From assembly GCA_003551265.1 (NCBI GenBank), contig PUMG01000282.1, positions 1 through 13,039 of the forward strand: a DNA stretch of 13,039 nt, given 5' to 3'. The notes under the pieces are model-generated. The model saw only the letters and a list, made by a program, of their open reading frames with translations. It had not been told where the DNA came from and did not search any database. Source of the DNA: Halovenus sp. Its GTDB lineage: Archaea > Halobacteriota > Halobacteria > Halobacteriales > Haloarculaceae. Position 1 is the stretch's first letter, and each line of letters begins with the position of its first letter. The translations under genes and the position numbers were made by a program. Shown here in pieces: positions 955 to 9,402 of this stretch.

Positions 955-3900
955 TCACGTGGTTCGGAGGTAGCCGGTCTGTGGCTCGTACACCTCGCCT
1001 TTCTGTTTGAGTTTCTCTATCTCGTGTTCGGTCTTCGTCGAGTCGATGCCAACCTCCTCGGCACGCTCGACGACGATTTCGAACGGCGCCCCCTCGTCGT
1101 ACTCCGCTTCGATATCCGCGATGAGGTGTTTGATGTTCTTGATGCGGTCACGCTGACTCTTCGTGGTTCCTGTCTCGACGACGTCCGCGTCGAACTCGCC
1201 TGTCTCAGGGTCCATGCCGATCTCTTCGAGACAGTACTGTGCGATTTCCGTTCCCCGCAGTGCGTCTTCTAGTTCGACGGTATCTGAGAGGCGGACCCGT
1301 GCGCTCGCTTCTGCCAGTCGGACGAGCGCTTCGAGTTTTCGGGCGGTGACTGGCACCGGTGCGTCCTCGTCCGACCCTGTCGAGCGGAGGTTAACGTAGA
1401 ACTCCCGTATCTGGCTTTTCGCCTCCTCGGTCATGGTGGGGTAACAGTTTCGCTTCGCATACGCGATGTACTTGCGAAGTAACTCCGCGTCAATCTCCGG
1501 GGAGACGTCCTCGGTCACCCGCTCGACCTCCTCGACGGTGTAATCGGAGTTCTGCATCTTCTCGCGGTGCGTGTTCAACTCGCCCGCGTAGTTCGTCTTG
1601 ATGATGTGGTCGGCTAACTCTGCGTCTTTCTCCTCGTTCGGGTTGTCCGTGACCGTGAAGATGAGGTCGAAACGCGAGATAAGCGGCGGATCGAGGTCGA
1701 TCTGTTCGCCGATTGGCTCGTACTGGTCGAAGCGACCGTACGTCGGGTTGGCGGCACCGAGCAACGAACAGCGTGATTTGAGTGTCGCGTTGATTCCTGC
1801 CTTGCTGACACTGATGGATTGCTGTTCCAGCGCTTCGTGCATTGCGCTCTGGTCCTCGGAGCGCATCTTATCCAGTTCGTCGACAGCCGCGATTCCCTGG
1901 TCGGCCAGCACGAGCGCACCGGCTTCGAGAGACCACTGCTGGCCGTCGCCGAAGTCGTCGCGAACCGCTGCAGCGGTGTTGTGCGTGACGAGTCCGTTGC
2001 CGATGAAGTTGTGTGTTCCAGGGACGGTCAGGTCGAACACCTCTTTCGTTCCCGTCCGCTCGACCGAGACGACGCTCTCCCACAGCAGTCCTGATTCGAC
2101 AACCTCCTCGACTGTGCCCTCCTGGTCCCCGAGGTCGACTTCCGTGAGGATATCGCGTGCCCGCTCCCTGCCCGGGTTGTCTCCGTCTGTGACGTTGTTG
2201 TAAAACCTCCCGCCAGCACCGTCTGTCCGTGCGAGCGTCTCACCAATCGGAATGGACGCTCCGCGCAGATTCGACCGTTCAATCAGGCGCTCGAGTGCGC
2301 GTTGTTTCCTCCCCGACCGAAATCCGATGGTCTCTGCGAACGTCGCAATGTCCGCTCCGTAAATTGTCAGGTGTGTCTGTACTGACTGTGAGTGAATTTC
2401 GTATCCACACTGTAGCTCGGTTTTTCCACGCCGGTCGCGCTTGCGAGAGCGAGCACTGACTCCGTAGGACGCGAGCATCAGTTGTACCTGTCTCGCAAGT
2501 TCGGGGCTGATGGTCGACAGCTGGATGCTCGAACCACCATCGTCTCGCGCACAGACTGCGCCATCGGCATCGAACAGTCCCTGGAGGAATGCGTCGGCGT
2601 TCTCTGCCGTAGTCAGTCTGTGGTCCAGTTCGAGTGTTTCCTTCGGCGTTACCATACCGAGGTTTTCGAACAGTCGCGCGATGGTTGCACTGTGAATTCG
2701 TATGCAGGGAACTTTCTCGTCCTGGTGTTCGATAGAGACCGAGTAGTCGAACGTGTTCTCGATGATTCTCGCAGCCTCTTCGAGGAGTTCTGTGTCCGAG
2801 TTCGAAATACGGACACACCCTCTGTTATTTCCTCGGCGCGAGACCATGATATCACCGTCACCGAAAACGAGACCGACAAGATAGAGCAGGTCTGAATCGA
2901 AGCGCTCGGGAATGGCGACGCTGTTGCCGTGACGGAGCATCGCACGGGCGATGTCGATGTCGTTACGGTCTGCGTCGATTGCATCGAGAATCCGGTCGAA
3001 TTTCTCCTGTGGCAGGTGACGGTGCGCCAGTGAATTGTAGATGAAATCCTCTGAGAGGCCCAGTTCGTCAGCGGCGTCTCGCAACGTCCCGAACTCCTCG
3101 CATAACTCGTTTCGGAGGAATGAAACAGATTCATCCGTCGGCTTCCGTTTCTCAGTGGTATACTCGATGTAGCTGTCGACCGGTGGTGACGTTCGCGACA
3201 CCGTGTCGTACTTCGGGACCGCAACGTGGTCTCCCGGCTCTATCTGTGACAGCGGCTTCCACTCGATACCCTCCGTTCCACAGACGAGCAGCGGTGTGTT
3301 CTGTGACGCCTCGAGCTGTTTTCCGTACTCTGTCTCGATACGCCGACACTCTTTTTCTGGCATCCGCCAGACGTGCGAGGACTCCTTCTCGACGATGTCC
3401 CCGCTCTCTCGGTCGAACGTACACAGACGCTCCTCGAACGGTGCAGCGGTGTCGGTGTCGACAGGCGTGGGGTGTTCGCGCTCTGCAAGGGTCTGAATCG
3501 GGACGTACCCATCTTCGGTGTGAATCAGCGTGTCGCCAGTGACACACAGCCCCGCAGAGCTGCTCCCTTTTCCAGAGGTGTAGACCGAACGCGGTGCTAT
3601 TTCCCTGACGTACTGTAACATCTGGCTCTTGCCGGTACCCGGATCACCGATGAGGAGCATGTGCAGGTCTCCACGCGTCCGTGAGCCGTCGGGGAGGTGT
3701 TTCGTCACGCCGGAAAACAGCTGAAATATCATCGCCCGCTTTTCTTTCTCGTAGCCGTAAATTGAGGGGGCGATGGATTTCTCCATCTTCTCGTAGATGT
3801 CGGGTTCGTTCGAGAGTTCGATTATCTGCTTTTTGTCCTCGTCGGTGATGTCCATCTCCTCGAACTGCTCGTCCTCGATTTCGACGGTCATGCCGTTCAT

Positions 3901-4620
3901 GTAGAAGTCGAACATCGGCGACTTCTCGCGCTCGTTGCCCTGCTGGTCGAGTTTGAGAATCCCTGTCACCTCGACGTGGTCACCGGCGGTCACGCGGCCG
4001 GTGATGTCGTCTTCGATGTTGACATCGACGTTCTGTGGCGTCTCCCCGCCGCGCAACCCTTCGGGAGACTCCTGTATGCGGAGTTTCTGTGCGTCGATGA
4101 ACTCCGACTGGTCGTAATTAATTCGAAACGGGCCCTGCCGTTCACAGCCCTGACACTCGTGTGGCTCCTGGAAGTCACCACCCTCCTGTGGGATGCGCGT
4201 CAGCGTCCCACAGCGCTGGCACTCGAATGCCGAGGTGACGATTTTCGGGCGGACGTCAGTCGCCTTGCGGACGATACCCTGAATTGCAATCAACATTCCA
4301 CGGTGGTCTGCCCGAATCTCACGGATGTCCGTCCGCTCGGGTAGTCCACGGACTCTGACGTGGGCCTGACCGAGAGAAACGTCGACAGGAAGGTCATAGA
4401 GCCTGAGCGCCTCCTCGGCGTACTGCCGAATCTGCTCGGGCTTGCTCCGGAAGTCGTCGGCGAGGTGTGGGTCGAACTGGTAGAGGTCTCGCCAGTCGAT
4501 GTAGAGCGACTTCTGCTCGGTGGGGTACTTCTGGGCAAGCTCTCCGATCTCGTTGCGATAGTAGCTTCGGTAGAACTCCTCGAACGCGTCGATGAGTTCG
4601 GTGTCGTCCGCGCGTGCCAT
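955..4620 (-). CDS. mcm: Replicative DNA helicase MCM with intein
   Basis: Precursor of 1221 residues; removing the 523-residue intein leaves 698, the usual size of a haloarchaeal MCM. It is the ring-shaped ATP-driven helicase that unwinds DNA at replication forks. The N-terminal domain has a four-cysteine zinc site (Cys134, Cys137, Cys156, Cys159) in an OB-fold region. Walker A is GDPGTGKS (325-332). After the intein come Walker B with VDELDK (Asp914, Glu915), sensor 1 in GAANP (Asn958) and the arginine finger in SRFD (Arg983). The C-terminal 65 residues look like the winged helix. The intein interrupts the conserved GL/TAA segment between Walker A and B, so the helicase cannot work until splicing has occurred. 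The ATG at 4620 gives the typical MCM N-terminus; no clear Shine-Dalgarno is present. The small gene at 677-949 follows directly. Confidence 0.97.
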   Translation of the reverse strand: MARADDTELIDAFEEFYRSYYRNEIGELAQKYPTEQKSLYIDWRDLYQFDPHLADDFRSKPEQIRQYAEEALRLYDLPVDVSLGQAHVRVRGLPERTDIREIRADHRGMLIAIQGIVRKATDVRPKIVTSAFECQRCGTLTRIPQEGGDFQEPHECQGCERQGPFRINYDQSEFIDAQKLRIQESPEGLRGGETPQNVDVNIEDDITGRVTAGDHVEVTGILKLDQQGNEREKSPMFDFYMNGMTVEIEDEQFEEMDITDEDKKQIIELSNEPDIYEKMEKSIAPSIYGYEKEKRAMIFQLFSGVTKHLPDGSRTRGDLHMLLIGDPGTGKSQMLQYVREIAPRSVYTSGKGSSSAGLCVTGDTLIHTEDGYVPIQTLAEREHPTPVDTDTAAPFEERLCTFDRESGDIVEKESSHVWRMPEKECRRIETEYGKQLEASQNTPLLVCGTEGIEWKPLSQIEPGDHVAVPKYDTVSRTSPPVDSYIEYTTEKRKPTDESVSFLRNELCEEFGTLRDAADELGLSEDFIYNSLAHRHLPQEKFDRILDAIDADRNDIDIARAMLRHGNSVAIPERFDSDLLYLVGLVFGDGDIMVSRRGNNRGCVRISNSDTELLEEAARIIENTFDYSVSIEHQDEKVPCIRIHSATIARLFENLGMVTPKETLELDHRLTTAENADAFLQGLFDADGAVCARDDGGSSIQLSTISPELARQVQLMLASYGVSARSRKRDRRGKTELQCGYEIHSQSVQTHLTIYGADIATFAETIGFRSGRKQRALERLIERSNLRGASIPIGETLARTDGAGGRFYNNVTDGDNPGRERARDILTEVDLGDQEGTVEEVVESGLLWESVVSVERTGTKEVFDLTVPGTHNFIGNGLVTHNTAAAVRDDFGDGQQWSLEAGALVLADQGIAAVDELDKMRSEDQSAMHEALEQQSISVSKAGINATLKSRCSLLGAANPTYGRFDQYEPIGEQIDLDPPLISRFDLIFTVTDNPNEEKDAELADHIIKTNYAGELNTHREKMQNSDYTVEEVERVTEDVSPEIDAELLRKYIAYAKRNCYPTMTEEAKSQIREFYVNLRSTGSDEDAPVPVTARKLEALVRLAEASARVRLSDTVELEDALRGTEIAQYCLEEIGMDPETGEFDADVVETGTTKSQRDRIKNIKHLIADIEAEYDEGAPFEIVVERAEEVGIDSTKTEHEIEKLKQKGEVYEPQTGYLRTT
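1978..3546 (-). mobile_element. Intein with LAGLIDADG homing endonuclease inside MCM
   Basis: A 523-residue in-frame insert (precursor residues 359-881). It begins with Cys (CVTGDTLIHTEDG, block A) and ends in VTHN followed by extein Thr882 (blocks F and G: VFDLTVPGTHNF ... THN), so both splice junctions look intact. The two endonuclease dodecapeptide motifs are LVGLVFGDG (intein 222-230) and LQGLFDADG (321-329); both keep the metal-binding Asp, so the homing enzyme may be active. A segment at about intein 153-178 resembles a helix-turn-helix. Block B, normally TxxH, reads SQNT (intein 81-84): Thr84 (codon ACA) takes the place of the usually invariant His. Inteins at MCM/CDC21 sites are common in archaea, and the element spreads by homing into intein-less alleles. 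Confidence 0.95.
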
Positions 4621-6095: not shown

Positions 6096-7079
6096 TCATC
6101 GCCCGGTCCAGCGGAGTAACAAGAGCGTGAGTTCGTAGAGTATGACCATGGTGATACCGACCATGAACGGGGCCATTCCGGTCGGGTCGGGGCTGAACAG
6201 GAACGCGAATCCAGCGAAGGCAAGCCAGAAGAAGTAGCGTTTCTCTTCGAGCCAGCGGCGGGTCGTGACGCCCATCATAATCGCGAGCATGATGAACAGC
6301 GGAATCTGGAAGATGGCAGCAAACAGCCCCATCATCAACAGGATGAGGTCGAACGTCTCTGTGAGACCGAACGCGATTTCGGCGACGTCCTCGGAGTAAA
6401 ACAGGAAGTACGTGAAAATAAACGGCAAGACGAGCAGGTACGCGAACGCGAGACCGACAATAGCGAGGACGAGGCTCGTCGGCACCGCAGCGAGATAGTA
6501 CCGGCGTTCGTGTGGGTACAGGCCCGGACGCATGAACAGGTAGGTCTGGTAGACGAACACCGGGAGTGCAATCACAAACCCGGCGAGTGAGGCGACTTTG
6601 ATGCGCGCAAACAGCAACGCAAGCGGATGATATACACGGGGACACGCTGTCGTATCGCCACTCCCGTCGACACACGTTTCGGGATTACCGGGCAAGAAGG
6701 AGTACCACAGATGGTTGATGAGTTCCGGCGCGAACGGGAAAATGATGAGACTGACACCACCCATGACGACGATGACCGCGGCCAGGCGCTTGAGCATCTC
6801 GTCGATGTGGTCCGTTAGCGGCATCTCCTCGTCGTCGGGCGCTCCATCGAACGCTCCCTCTGCCGACGAACCTTCTGACTGTGTGGCTGACGTGGCGTCT
6901 GCCTGTGTGGTTCCGCCGTCGCTTTTTGGGTCACCCTCCTCGCTCTCGGTGACATCTTCGGATGAGTCATCTCCCTCGGGGAGATGGACTCCTTCTGGTG
7001 ATTCGTCGCTCTCCGGGAGCTCTCCGGCGGGGCCGTCGCTATCAGCGGGCGTTGACGGTTTGTCGTCCCCGTCGGTCAT
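6096..7079 (-). CDS. tatCo: Twin-arginine translocase subunit TatC, single-domain form (TatCo)
   Basis: A 327-residue membrane protein, the receptor core of the Tat pathway that exports folded proteins with twin-arginine signals. An acidic, disordered-looking N-terminal extension of about 85 residues precedes the TatC domain, longer than in bacterial TatC. HIDEMLKR (91-98) matches the bacterial HLxELRxR motif, with Glu94 in the signal-contact position. FMRPGLYPHERR (182-193) matches the second signal-binding loop, with Glu191. Six hydrophobic spans follow the TatC layout. The first outer loop carries Cys136 and Cys146, which could form a disulfide. I chose the ATG at 7079; an in-frame start at 7148 would add 23 basic residues and pass through the likely promoter. 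The gene is divergent from tatCt. Confidence 0.95.
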   Translation of the reverse strand: MTDGDDKPSTPADSDGPAGELPESDESPEGVHLPEGDDSSEDVTESEEGDPKSDGGTTQADATSATQSEGSSAEGAFDGAPDDEEMPLTDHIDEMLKRLAAVIVVMGGVSLIIFPFAPELINHLWYSFLPGNPETCVDGSGDTTACPRVYHPLALLFARIKVASLAGFVIALPVFVYQTYLFMRPGLYPHERRYYLAAVPTSLVLAIVGLAFAYLLVLPFIFTYFLFYSEDVAEIAFGLTETFDLILLMMGLFAAIFQIPLFIMLAIMMGVTTRRWLEEKRYFFWLAFAGFAFLFSPDPTGMAPFMVGITMVILYELTLLLLRWTGR

Positions 7080-7104
7080 TGGGGTGTGAGTACTTCGTGG
7101 TCTC

Positions 7105-7110
7105 TTGTAA
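7105..7110 (-). promoter_or_regulatory. TATA-like box for tatCo
   Basis: Minus-strand TTACAA lies 26-31 bases before the ATG at 7079, consistent with a leaderless transcript. It supports the 7079 start over the longer frame. The box is imperfect. Confidence 0.4.
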
Positions 7111-7136
7111 GCCTTCTCTCTCGCTATGAATAGATT

Positions 7137-7143
7137 GATAACC
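7137..7143 (+). promoter_or_regulatory. TATA-like box for tatCt
   Basis: GATAACC lies 25-31 bases before the ATG at 7168. The 88-base gap between the two tat genes thus holds two back-to-back core promoters about 27 bases apart, so binding at one could affect the other. Confidence 0.35.
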
Positions 7144-7167
7144 AGCAATCAGCTACGTTCTGCATAG

Positions 7168-9402
7168 ATGTCTGGAGCGCTTCCAGAGGGGACGGCTCGC
7201 TCACTGGCTAGCGGGCGGGCCACCATCGGTTCGATGCTCTCGGCTGCCCAGACCCATCTCAAGAAGGTTTTTCTCGTGTTCGTGACGACGATGTTGCTCA
7301 CGCTCTGGGCGCTTCGTGCGTTCATCTGGGAGCGTCTCGAACAGGACCTCGTCTTCGACCGGATGGACGTCACGACCGAACAGGCGACGGAGATTATCGT
7401 CGTGACGCCGTTTGACGTCATCTTGCTTCAGGTGAAAATCGGCATCGTGATGGGCATTCTCGTCTCGATTCCGGTGTTGCTCTGGTACAGCCGGGACGCG
7501 CTCAGACAGCGCGGCTACTGGCCGTCGTCGACGATTCCACGGTGGAAAGTCTGGTCGTTCGTGGCTGCCATTTCACTTCTGTTTCTGGGTGGGATTTCCT
7601 ATGCGTACTTCTTTTTCTTCCCGATAATGTTCGACTTTCTCGCGGCGAACGCCGTTCAGGCCGGGTTCAAACCGACCTGGTCTATCGTGATGTGGACCGA
7701 GTTCATCTTCTTCCTCGCGCTCTCGTTCGGACTGGCAGCACAGCTCCCACTGCTGATGAGTGCGACCTCCCGGACAGGCATCGTCCCGTACGAAACCTAC
7801 CGGAACAAGTGGAAGTACGCGGTTGTCGGTATCTTCGTCTTCGGCGCGATGTTCTCGCCGCCGGACCCGTTCACGCAGGTGATGTGGGGCGTCCCGCTCG
7901 TGTTGCTTTATTTCGTCAGCCTTGGCATCGCCAAACTGGCAGTCCTCTCGAAGCGGGCTGGGGAACAGGTCACGATGGCAGAGGTCGCCCGGGCACACTG
8001 GAATATGCTCGCTGGGACTGCTTTCCTGACGGCCGTCGCTGTCTACGCGTACCTCACAGAAGGCGGTGTGCAGGCGACGAACGACCTGCTTGCCGCAGTT
8101 GGCTCACGCTATCGGGTCGTCGTCTTTCTTGATGACCCGGTTGCGTTCGGTCTCGATGCAGGAGTTGCAGCGGCCCTTGTGGGCGTCGCGGCTGCAGTTC
8201 CCGTTGCCGGTGTTGTGCTCTTTTATTACCGGATTCAGGAGCTGGAACGTCGACTCGAAGCTGCTGAGTCTGGCGGTGTCCCAGCAGACGAACAGGGCGC
8301 TGAAACAGGAGATGAGGGAGCAAACGCAGGCGAACCCGCCGAGATAGACATTGGGGCGATGGGCGCTCCTGCGCTGAAGGCCACGTCAGCCGAGGCGTTC
8401 GTCGACCTGAGTGAAGAGCGTGCACTCCACTACGCCGAACAGGCGCTCGAAGACGACGACCCCGAGAAGGCGAAGGCGGTCCTCGACAGGTTCGACGAGG
8501 CACAGGAGTACCAGCAAGAACAGGAAGAAGAGGAGGAGGAAGAAGACGAAGAGGCTGGAATCGTCACGTCGACCGCCGCAGGAATCGTCGACCCGTTCAC
8601 TGAGGACGAGACGACAGAGGACGACATCGGTGGGTACTACTACGACATCCGGTTCATACTCGACTCGCTGACGTCCAGAGCGATGTGGATTGTCGGGACG
8701 TTCATGGTCGTCCTCGCCGGGTCGTTCATGTGGCTGTACCTCGGCGGTATCGGTCAGATTCGAGAGATGTTCTTCCAGAACATGCCCGACGCCCTCGTCG
8801 ACGAACCGGAGATTGTCGTCTTGCACCCTGTCGAGGCGCTCATCTTCATGCTGAAGTTCTCGACACTGCTCGCAGCGGTGTCTATTCTCCCGCTCGTGCT
8901 GTACTTTGCGTGGCCAGCCATCGAAGACCGCGGTCTCTCCTCGGGTGACCGGAACGTCCTCCTGTGGTGGGGCGGCATGATGTTTCTGGCCGTCTTCGGC
9001 GGAACGTTCCTCGGGTTCGTCTACATTGCGCCCACGATACTCTCGTTGCTCGCCACTGACGTGGTGCTCAACGACATGATTATCGCCTACCGCATCAGCA
9101 GCTTCGGCTGGCTCGTCATCTACCTGACCGTCGGTGTGGGTCTGCTGGCGATGATTCCGGTCACCATGGTGTTGTTCAACCACGGCAACATCATCTCCTA
9201 CCGCCGGATGCGAAAGAGCTGGCGGGGTGTCATCCTCGCGTTCTTCGCAGCCGCAGGGCTCCTCTCGCCGAGTGGCATCTGGACGATGTTCATCGTCGCC
9301 ATCCCCATGTCGATCGCGTACGGATTCGGACTCGGTCTCGTCTGGCTGTACTCGGGTATCAACCGCCGGGTTCGCCAGCCGTGGGGCGAAGCGGCTGACT
9401 GA
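7168..9402 (+). CDS. tatCt: Tandem-fused twin-arginine translocase subunit TatCt (two TatC domains)
   Basis: A 744-residue membrane protein with two TatC domains: about 20-260 and about 490-735. In the first, IVVTPFDVILLQVKIG and MFSPPDPFTQ are typical TatC segments; in the second, VVLHPVEALIFMLKFS and GLLSPSGIW are their counterparts. Between them lie two extra hydrophobic spans (about 278-296 and 330-354) and a long acidic cytoplasmic stretch (about 356-485) with a Glu-run. This is the 14-span architecture known for haloarchaeal TatCt. The first domain lacks a good copy of the HLxELR and PHERR signal-binding motifs found in TatCo, and the second has only partial ones, so the two TatC proteins are probably not interchangeable. 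No TatA gene lies in the window. The ATG at 7168 follows a TATA-like box at leaderless distance. Confidence 0.95.
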   Translation: MSGALPEGTARSLASGRATIGSMLSAAQTHLKKVFLVFVTTMLLTLWALRAFIWERLEQDLVFDRMDVTTEQATEIIVVTPFDVILLQVKIGIVMGILVSIPVLLWYSRDALRQRGYWPSSTIPRWKVWSFVAAISLLFLGGISYAYFFFFPIMFDFLAANAVQAGFKPTWSIVMWTEFIFFLALSFGLAAQLPLLMSATSRTGIVPYETYRNKWKYAVVGIFVFGAMFSPPDPFTQVMWGVPLVLLYFVSLGIAKLAVLSKRAGEQVTMAEVARAHWNMLAGTAFLTAVAVYAYLTEGGVQATNDLLAAVGSRYRVVVFLDDPVAFGLDAGVAAALVGVAAAVPVAGVVLFYYRIQELERRLEAAESGGVPADEQGAETGDEGANAGEPAEIDIGAMGAPALKATSAEAFVDLSEERALHYAEQALEDDDPEKAKAVLDRFDEAQEYQQEQEEEEEEEDEEAGIVTSTAAGIVDPFTEDETTEDDIGGYYYDIRFILDSLTSRAMWIVGTFMVVLAGSFMWLYLGGIGQIREMFFQNMPDALVDEPEIVVLHPVEALIFMLKFSTLLAAVSILPLVLYFAWPAIEDRGLSSGDRNVLLWWGGMMFLAVFGGTFLGFVYIAPTILSLLATDVVLNDMIIAYRISSFGWLVIYLTVGVGLLAMIPVTMVLFNHGNIISYRRMRKSWRGVILAFFAAAGLLSPSGIWTMFIVAIPMSIAYGFGLGLVWLYSGINRRVRQPWGEAAD
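8524..8553 (+). repeat. GAA/GAG triplet tract encoding an acidic run in TatCt
   Basis: Ten consecutive codons, all GAA or GAG apart from one GAC, encode residues 453-462 of TatCt in the loop between its two TatC halves. The purine-only character on one strand makes the tract prone to slippage, so its length may differ between strains. Gains or losses in multiples of three would keep the frame. Confidence 0.8.

Follow-up and report, generated by a model that had tools for sequence, protein, structure and literature searches.

The histidine at position 10 of block B (B:10) is present in nearly all inteins. It is described as the most conserved intein residue in a review that counts two inteins without it (PMC4031507), and the inteins that lack it are called a very small subset elsewhere (PMC6333167). 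The closest described system is the Tko CDC21-1 intein, which has Thr at the block B His position (PMC5874633) and, as related in two reviews, employs Lys58, a residue outside the motifs, instead of that His (PMC4031507, PMC5874633). Orthologs of Tko CDC21-1 are reported to lack the block B His as well (PMC3196547) and to have Leu at the -1 position (PMC6333167). Here we describe an MCM intein found on a haloarchaeal stretch of DNA of 13,039 nucleotides, the whole of which is referred to as the window. The His-less group to which this intein belongs is already known; what we add is how widely the trait occurs, and the presence of Arg at the Lys58 position. Full-text searches yielded no paper with a title or abstract opening devoted to block B of the haloarchaeal MCM-b inteins, subscription papers such as Tori et al. 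2012 being outside their reach.

Results

Organization of the MCM gene and its intein

The window contains an ORF for the MCM replicative helicase that is interrupted by one intein. The features of the ORF are as follows, with a slash marking the point of intein insertion.

955..4620, minus strand: ORF of the MCM replicative helicase, 1221 aa with its single intein and 698 aa without it
1978..3546, minus strand: intein of 523 aa, ORF residues 359-881, inserted at SGKGSSSAGL/TAAAV, the CDC21-b (MCM-b) position
3544..3546, minus strand: Cys1, first nucleophile, Cys in 157/157 distinct haloarchaeal b-site inteins
3364..3369, minus strand: Trp60-Arg61 pair, Arg61 aligning with Lys58 of the Thermococcus mini-inteins at the same site
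3283..3324, minus strand: block B region, G75 to V88, GKQLEASQNTPLLV
3295..3297, minus strand: Thr84 (ACA) at B:10, where His is usual
2851..2871, minus strand: first LAGLIDADG motif, LVFGDGD, residues 226-232
2557..2577, minus strand: second LAGLIDADG motif, LFDADGA, residues 324-330
2032..2034, minus strand: Asp505, block F position 4 (F:4), kept in 157/157
1978..1983, minus strand: His522-Asn523, block G positions 6 and 7, in 157/157, both residues having been demanded by the extraction pattern
1975..1977, minus strand: Thr +1 of the C-extein, second nucleophile

The NCBIfam model of the main MCM (NF040949) matched the ORF in two stretches, and Pfam analysis of the ORF revealed an intein splicing domain as well as LAGLIDADG_3 (PF14528) in two stretches. 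The intein is inserted after AGL and before TAAAV, 27 residues beyond the P-loop site. By offset, this position adjoins residue 362 in the numbering of Hfx. volcanii, which is one of four sites listed for MCM in PMC3972481, and it is the same as that of PabCDC21-2, for which an equal downstream distance of 27 residues from the P-loop site is given (PMC6801210).

Among the residues that define a class 1 intein, Cys1, the F:4 Asp, the G:6 His, the G:7 Asn (codon 1980-1978, minus strand) and a Cys, Ser or Thr at +1 are all present in the window intein, as the preliminary description had held. The two class 1 residues of block B are both replaced, Thr at B:7 by Ser81 and His at B:10 by Thr84, and the B:10 departure is the known exception of Tko CDC21-1 and the His-less CDC21-b group. 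The two LAGLIDADG motifs each contain acidic residues, so that a homing endonuclease is predicted. The intein also has His512 at F:13. This second assisting His also varies among the haloarchaeal b-site inteins, F:13 being His in 137/157 and otherwise Asn (17), Gln (2) or Arg (1).

An AlphaFold2 model built from 16 sequences was weak overall (mean pLDDT 59). The N-terminal HINT part scored 72-90 per block of ten residues, the C-terminal one 57-88. The six best Foldseek matches were all inteins, TliVMA being first and PhoCDC21-1 sixth. The model supports an intein fold and nothing finer.

Block B contains Thr in place of His

Block B of the window intein reads S81-Q-N-T84-P, with the B:10 residue encoded by ACA at 3297-3295; the stretch 3286-3306 spans the codons from S81 to L87 (SQNTPLL). 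The absence of the block B His was thus confirmed. The His residues of the intein are found at positions 9, 25, 58, 107, 175, 177, 206, 274, 285, 309, 385, 392, 512 and 522. An alternative His was sought at the block B position and there was none: when 397 inteins of three MCM sites (b site, 157 and 40 rows; a or P-loop site, 71 and 85 rows; KMR/S site, 44 rows) were aligned, T84 fell in the column occupied by His in every one of the 200 a-site and KMR/S-site inteins.

Thr84 is neither a chance change nor a sequencing error, since Thr is found at this position in 157/157 distinct haloarchaeal inteins and is encoded there by all four Thr codons. The codons among 38 genome loci were ACG in 30, ACA in 4, ACT in 2 and ACC in 2, and this use of every Thr codon points to selection for the amino acid. 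Position B:7 is also altered, being Ser in 156/157 of the distinct haloarchaeal b-site inteins and Thr in the remaining one.

The His-less state is shared by the inteins of the AGL/T site

We compared the window intein with other inteins at the same site, counting B:10 residues from alignment columns rather than from motif patterns. The haloarchaeal set comprised 182 sequences (119 proteins and 63 loci), which gave 157 distinct inteins after removal of 25 exact duplicates; the pattern used for extraction demanded Leu(-1) and His522-Asn523. Two proteins were left out before counting, P0067 (no N-terminal anchor; Thr at B:10) and P0221 (a false cut). Searches seeded with Pyrococcus and Thermococcus sequences contributed 92 more (90 distinct), made up of 40 in a first set and 52 obtained with a Thermococcus b-site mini-intein as query. 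Among the AGL/T inteins cut at both junctions, B:10 was Thr in 249/249 (247 distinct) and His in none, with Thr in 157/157 of the distinct haloarchaeal inteins and in 40/40 and 52/52 of the two seeded-search sets. The Thr is thus common to the halophilic alleles at this site, a point on which the preliminary description had asked for an alignment.

Three further AGL/T inteins were defined by the N-terminal junction only. P0203 and P0215 both read TPNT at block B, and P0193, from an MCM whose source name points to a nanoarchaeote and inserted after SGKGVTGAGL, has Asn at B:10 (TKEN-P) and Phe-Lys replacing Trp-Lys. The totals for the b-site lineage are therefore 252/252 without the B:10 His, with Thr in 251/252 and Asn in P0193, the latter indicating that Thr is not obligatory. 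The Thermococcus mini-intein query had returned 87 new proteins, which gave the 52 clean b-site cuts, one empty site and 34 proteins without an anchor. Of these last, 19 contained a fitting W[KR]...TxxT pattern but were left uncounted, 2 gave chance-like matches and 13 gave none. The same pattern was present in three anchor-less proteins of an earlier search (P0165, P0185 and P0220), likewise outside the counts. Source names in the set of 52 include Thermococcus, Methanothermobacter, Methanomassiliicoccus and a woesearchaeote.

With the window intein as query, a protein search gave 656 matches from 7994 candidates scored, and the best 120 of these, the window included, all have Thr. At the genome level, an intein was confirmed at the AGL/T junctions in at least 62 of the 391 genomes of the window's class, its own genome included; a separate contig scan of genomes gave one locus only. 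The B:10 residue is Thr in all 62 genome loci and in one from Halonotius pteroides, and their B:7 residue is either Ser or Thr.

The haloarchaeal MCM-b inteins, which by source name come from Haloplanus, Halorubrum, Halorhabdus and others, occupy the same site as the window intein and are for most genome loci 50-65% identical to it over the whole length (93% for P0002). No difference in splicing motifs was seen, so the window intein is a typical member. Two haloarchaeal b-site inteins, L066 and L067, are mini-inteins of 160 and 185 aa, many of the non-haloarchaeal members are mini-inteins as well, and L064 and L065 retain the Thr at just 34% overall identity. The presence of Thr in b-site mini-inteins indicates that loss of the His does not depend on the endonuclease, and its presence in 92/92 of the Pyrococcus- and Thermococcus-seeded inteins indicates that the trait belongs to one intein lineage and is not tied to halophily. 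The preliminary description had linked the substitution to a halophilic, endonuclease-bearing intein, a link that these data do not support. It had also held that Thr sets the window intein apart from Tko CDC21-1; this distinction does not stand, because Tko CDC21-1 is itself reported to have Thr (PMC5874633), as do all 249 of the same-site inteins.

The exteins of the P0002 MCM are identical to those of the window at 688 of 698 positions. P0002 has one intein of 179 aa at the P-loop site, one of 523 aa at AGL/T and one of 636 aa at KMR/S. Of these three the window has the middle one only, and this shared intein (485/523 identical) diverges more than the exteins do.

Inteins at neighboring MCM sites retain the His

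Both b-site anchors were present in 119 proteins of the first search; a further intein is found at the P-loop (a) site in 71 of these and at the KMR/S site in 44. We take the KMR/S site to be site d of PMC10643990, where the MCM inteins of that site are described with Pro instead of the +1 Ser. The inteins of these two sites share the class 1 blocks with the window intein, and those of the a site the Trp-Lys/Arg pair as well, but they differ from it in their insertion sites and in having His at B:10, without exception in 200/200 (71/71 and 85/85 at the a site, 44/44 at KMR/S).

A tree of 90 HINT domains placed a single Thr/His change on one branch (support 98/83). The change was again single (SH-aLRT 81) in a tree of 89 rows from which B:7 and B:10 had been masked and the long row P0209 omitted. 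In both trees all sampled b-site rows fall on one side of one branch; both trees are unrooted, and P0193, which is in neither, would add one change. Because the block B His is described as the most conserved intein residue (PMC4031507), we take His as the ancestral state in these unrooted trees. The simplest origin of the Thr, and in one case Asn, of the CDC21-b family would then be a single ancestral loss of the His.

A basic residue is conserved at the position of Lys58

Mini-inteins of the Thermococcus type at the AGL/T site are 140-145 aa long. In the ten inspected, Leu is found at -1, Thr at B:10, and a Lys that follows a Trp is residue 58; this Lys58 aligns with Arg61 of the window intein, so that the basic residue is present in the window intein as Arg, not Lys. 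Among the matches of the Thermococcus mini-intein search no record bore the name Tko CDC21-1, but the residue numbering, Leu(-1) and Thr of that intein would place it at the AGL/T site. On that placement, Tko CDC21-1 and the Thermococcus mini-inteins are alike with the window intein in the insertion after AGL, Leu(-1), Thr at B:10, the Trp-basic pair and the class 1 residues. The window intein differs from the 140-145-aa mini-inteins in having Arg for Lys, Ser at B:7, a LAGLIDADG endonuclease and a halophilic host. Other b-site members of the Thermococcus type, of 631-636 aa, are not mini-inteins.

The residue after the Trp (Phe in two cases) is basic in 249/249 of the b-site inteins: Arg in 157/157 of the haloarchaeal set, and basic in 40/40 (28 Lys, 12 Arg) and 52/52 (29 Lys, 23 Arg) of the two seeded-search sets. 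The same Trp-Lys/Arg pair is found in 156/156 of the His-bearing a-site inteins (71/71 and 85/85), and the inteins of the KMR/S site have His-Glu or His-Gln there (44/44). Because the pair is also universal at the His-bearing a site, its conservation alone cannot show a compensating role, and the basic residue probably predates loss of the His and was recruited later, as judged from its distribution. It is only the published mutagenesis of Tko CDC21-1, as conveyed by reviews, that would single out Arg61 as the compensator. The Tko work together with the Lys or Arg found in 249/249 b-site inteins makes this residue the best candidate for a stand-in, and by analogy Arg61 is probably the compensating residue of the window intein. 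The preliminary description had drawn the parallel to a compensating mechanism as in Tko CDC21-1, and this proves to be the right one.

Other residues of the window intein were considered and set aside. A JBC review puts Tko Lys58 near a position "22 residues past" B:10, which, taken literally, leads to residues 106-107 and so to His107; this residue is His in only 83/157, and Lys58 lies 24 residues before B:10 in the ten mini-inteins inspected (23 in P0171). Cys67 and Cys89 are kept in haloarchaea only, and Lys65 is fully kept only there. Trp96 is near-invariant among the b-site inteins and lacking from those of both other MCM sites, yet a Trp occupies the corresponding position in His-bearing inteins such as Pho RadA and Ssp DnaB.

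The host gene is the main MCM

The genome from which the window comes (2.9 Mb in 380 contigs, 88% complete) contains a second MCM gene (L001:682-2733) on another contig (C243). This gene is free of inteins and encodes 683 aa that are 43-45% identical to the window exteins, with the motifs GDPGTAKS and DEID; its stretch at the intein site, SGKGVTEAGM/TASAV, differs from the invaded site. The core haloarchaeal MCM is described as having 697-702 aa without inteins and the motifs GDPGTGKS, DELD and SRF, and an outlier group as being 24-48% identical to the Hfx. volcanii MCM (PMC3972481). The window MCM has 698 aa, GDPGTGKS, DELD and SRF and thus fits the core group by sequence, and L001 resembles the outlier group as characterized there. 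The view that the intein resides in the main rather than a second MCM is upheld by these core-group motifs, by the NF040949 match and by the outlier type of L001.

In 14 of 17 searched genomes with a b-site intein (1-4 contigs, 97-100% complete; exceptions G172, G360 and G041), the intein-bearing gene was the only ORF with an MCM domain above 40 bits. MCM is cited as essential in Hbt. salinarum (PMC3972481). A sole MCM gene in these 14 genomes, together with that essentiality, indicates that the intein should splice in them. A dead intein is very unlikely in the CDC21-b family, and we infer the same for the window's own cell.

Discussion

We consider it likely that the window intein, of class 1 and equipped with an endonuclease, is a typical representative of the CDC21-b (MCM-b) family, orthologous to Tko CDC21-1, and that it splices with Arg61 probably standing in for the block B His. 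In such a mechanism the first step, the N-S acyl shift at Leu(-1)-Cys1, would go without the His, probably aided by Arg61 (Lys58 in Thermococcus), and strain from the bulky Leu(-1) would perhaps add to it; steps 2 to 4 would use the usual residues Thr+1, Asp505, His522 and Asn523. We give about even chances to a more specific proposal, namely that Arg61 does the job of Tko Lys58 throughout the haloarchaeal MCM-b inteins, its guanidinium group taking over activation of step 1, and that the B:10 Thr is itself selected in a large natural lineage. The basis for a selected Thr is its presence in 251/252 of the members read and the use of all four codons in haloarchaea.

It is rather unlikely, though worth weighing, that Arg61 does little and that strain at Leu(-1), together with the fold, drives the first step with no replacement of the His needed. 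An evolved Ssp DnaB intein with its block B His mutated is reported to be rescued by large side chains at -1, and that work suggests the Tko CDC21-1 orthologs, which have Leu(-1), as a possible instance in nature (PMC6333167); the b-site inteins that we inspected do follow AGL. Leu(-1), however, belongs to the conserved extein and so gives no sign of co-adaptation, its uniformity in the haloarchaeal set having been demanded by the extraction pattern, and Lys58 is stated by reviews to matter in Tko CDC21-1 (PMC4031507, PMC5874633). Much less probable is a decaying, non-splicing intein. The model for such decay is the Arth_1007 intein of Arthrobacter FB24, which like the window intein lacks the B:10 His and is inactive; unlike the window intein it has Asn at B:10 and tiny exteins and is described as a pseudogene (PMC3196547). 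We regard decay as hardly credible here, given that Thr84, Arg61, Cys1 and Asp505 are invariant in 157/157 (His522-Asn523 also, by the extraction pattern), that the window intein has no stop and both LAGLIDADG motifs, and that its host is the main MCM, which is the sole MCM in 14 of the 17 related genomes.

The preliminary description had suggested that loss of the His makes splicing slow or salt-gated and thereby controls the supply of MCM. Some haloarchaeal inteins are indeed known to splice in high salt only, among them HutMCM2, reported as salt-inducible and unfolded without salt (PMC8512742). The cloning primer given for HutMCM2 encodes Met-Arg ahead of residue 1 (PMC8512742), which by our reading probably places this intein at the KMR/S site, where B:10 is His in 44/44. 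Salt dependence therefore needs no loss of the block B His; it is a folding property, seen in an MCM intein that probably bears the His. The His-less state is moreover found in 92/92 of the Pyrococcus- and Thermococcus-seeded members and is not halophile-bound. We found no evidence in support of salt gating of the MCM supply and consider it very improbable.

The consequence for the window alone is modest, the feature being ordinary. Its significance lies in the family: a whole intein lineage at one MCM site lacks the block B His (252/252 read) and is present in at least 62 of the 391 genomes of the window's class. These inteins form a natural series for studying how splicing starts without its usual catalyst, with Lys or Arg at the compensator place, Ser or Thr at B:7, and the endonuclease present or absent. 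The Asn variant P0193 is a natural variant worth testing.

Other features of the window and its genome

At 2-616 on the minus strand the window contains a cut ORF starting MHAFRDVETAAYCPRKLYYRR, which had no Pfam match at E 1e-4 and which may resemble Cas4-like nucleases. Two adjacent, divergent TatC genes are found at 6096-7148 (minus strand) and 7168-9402 (plus strand), the second encoding 744 aa with two TatC stretches. Elsewhere in the same genome, a search with the window intein matched G000:C318:5648-6286, with 31% identity over residues 224-421, within an open frame of 2265 aa; by this similarity it is perhaps a further intein.
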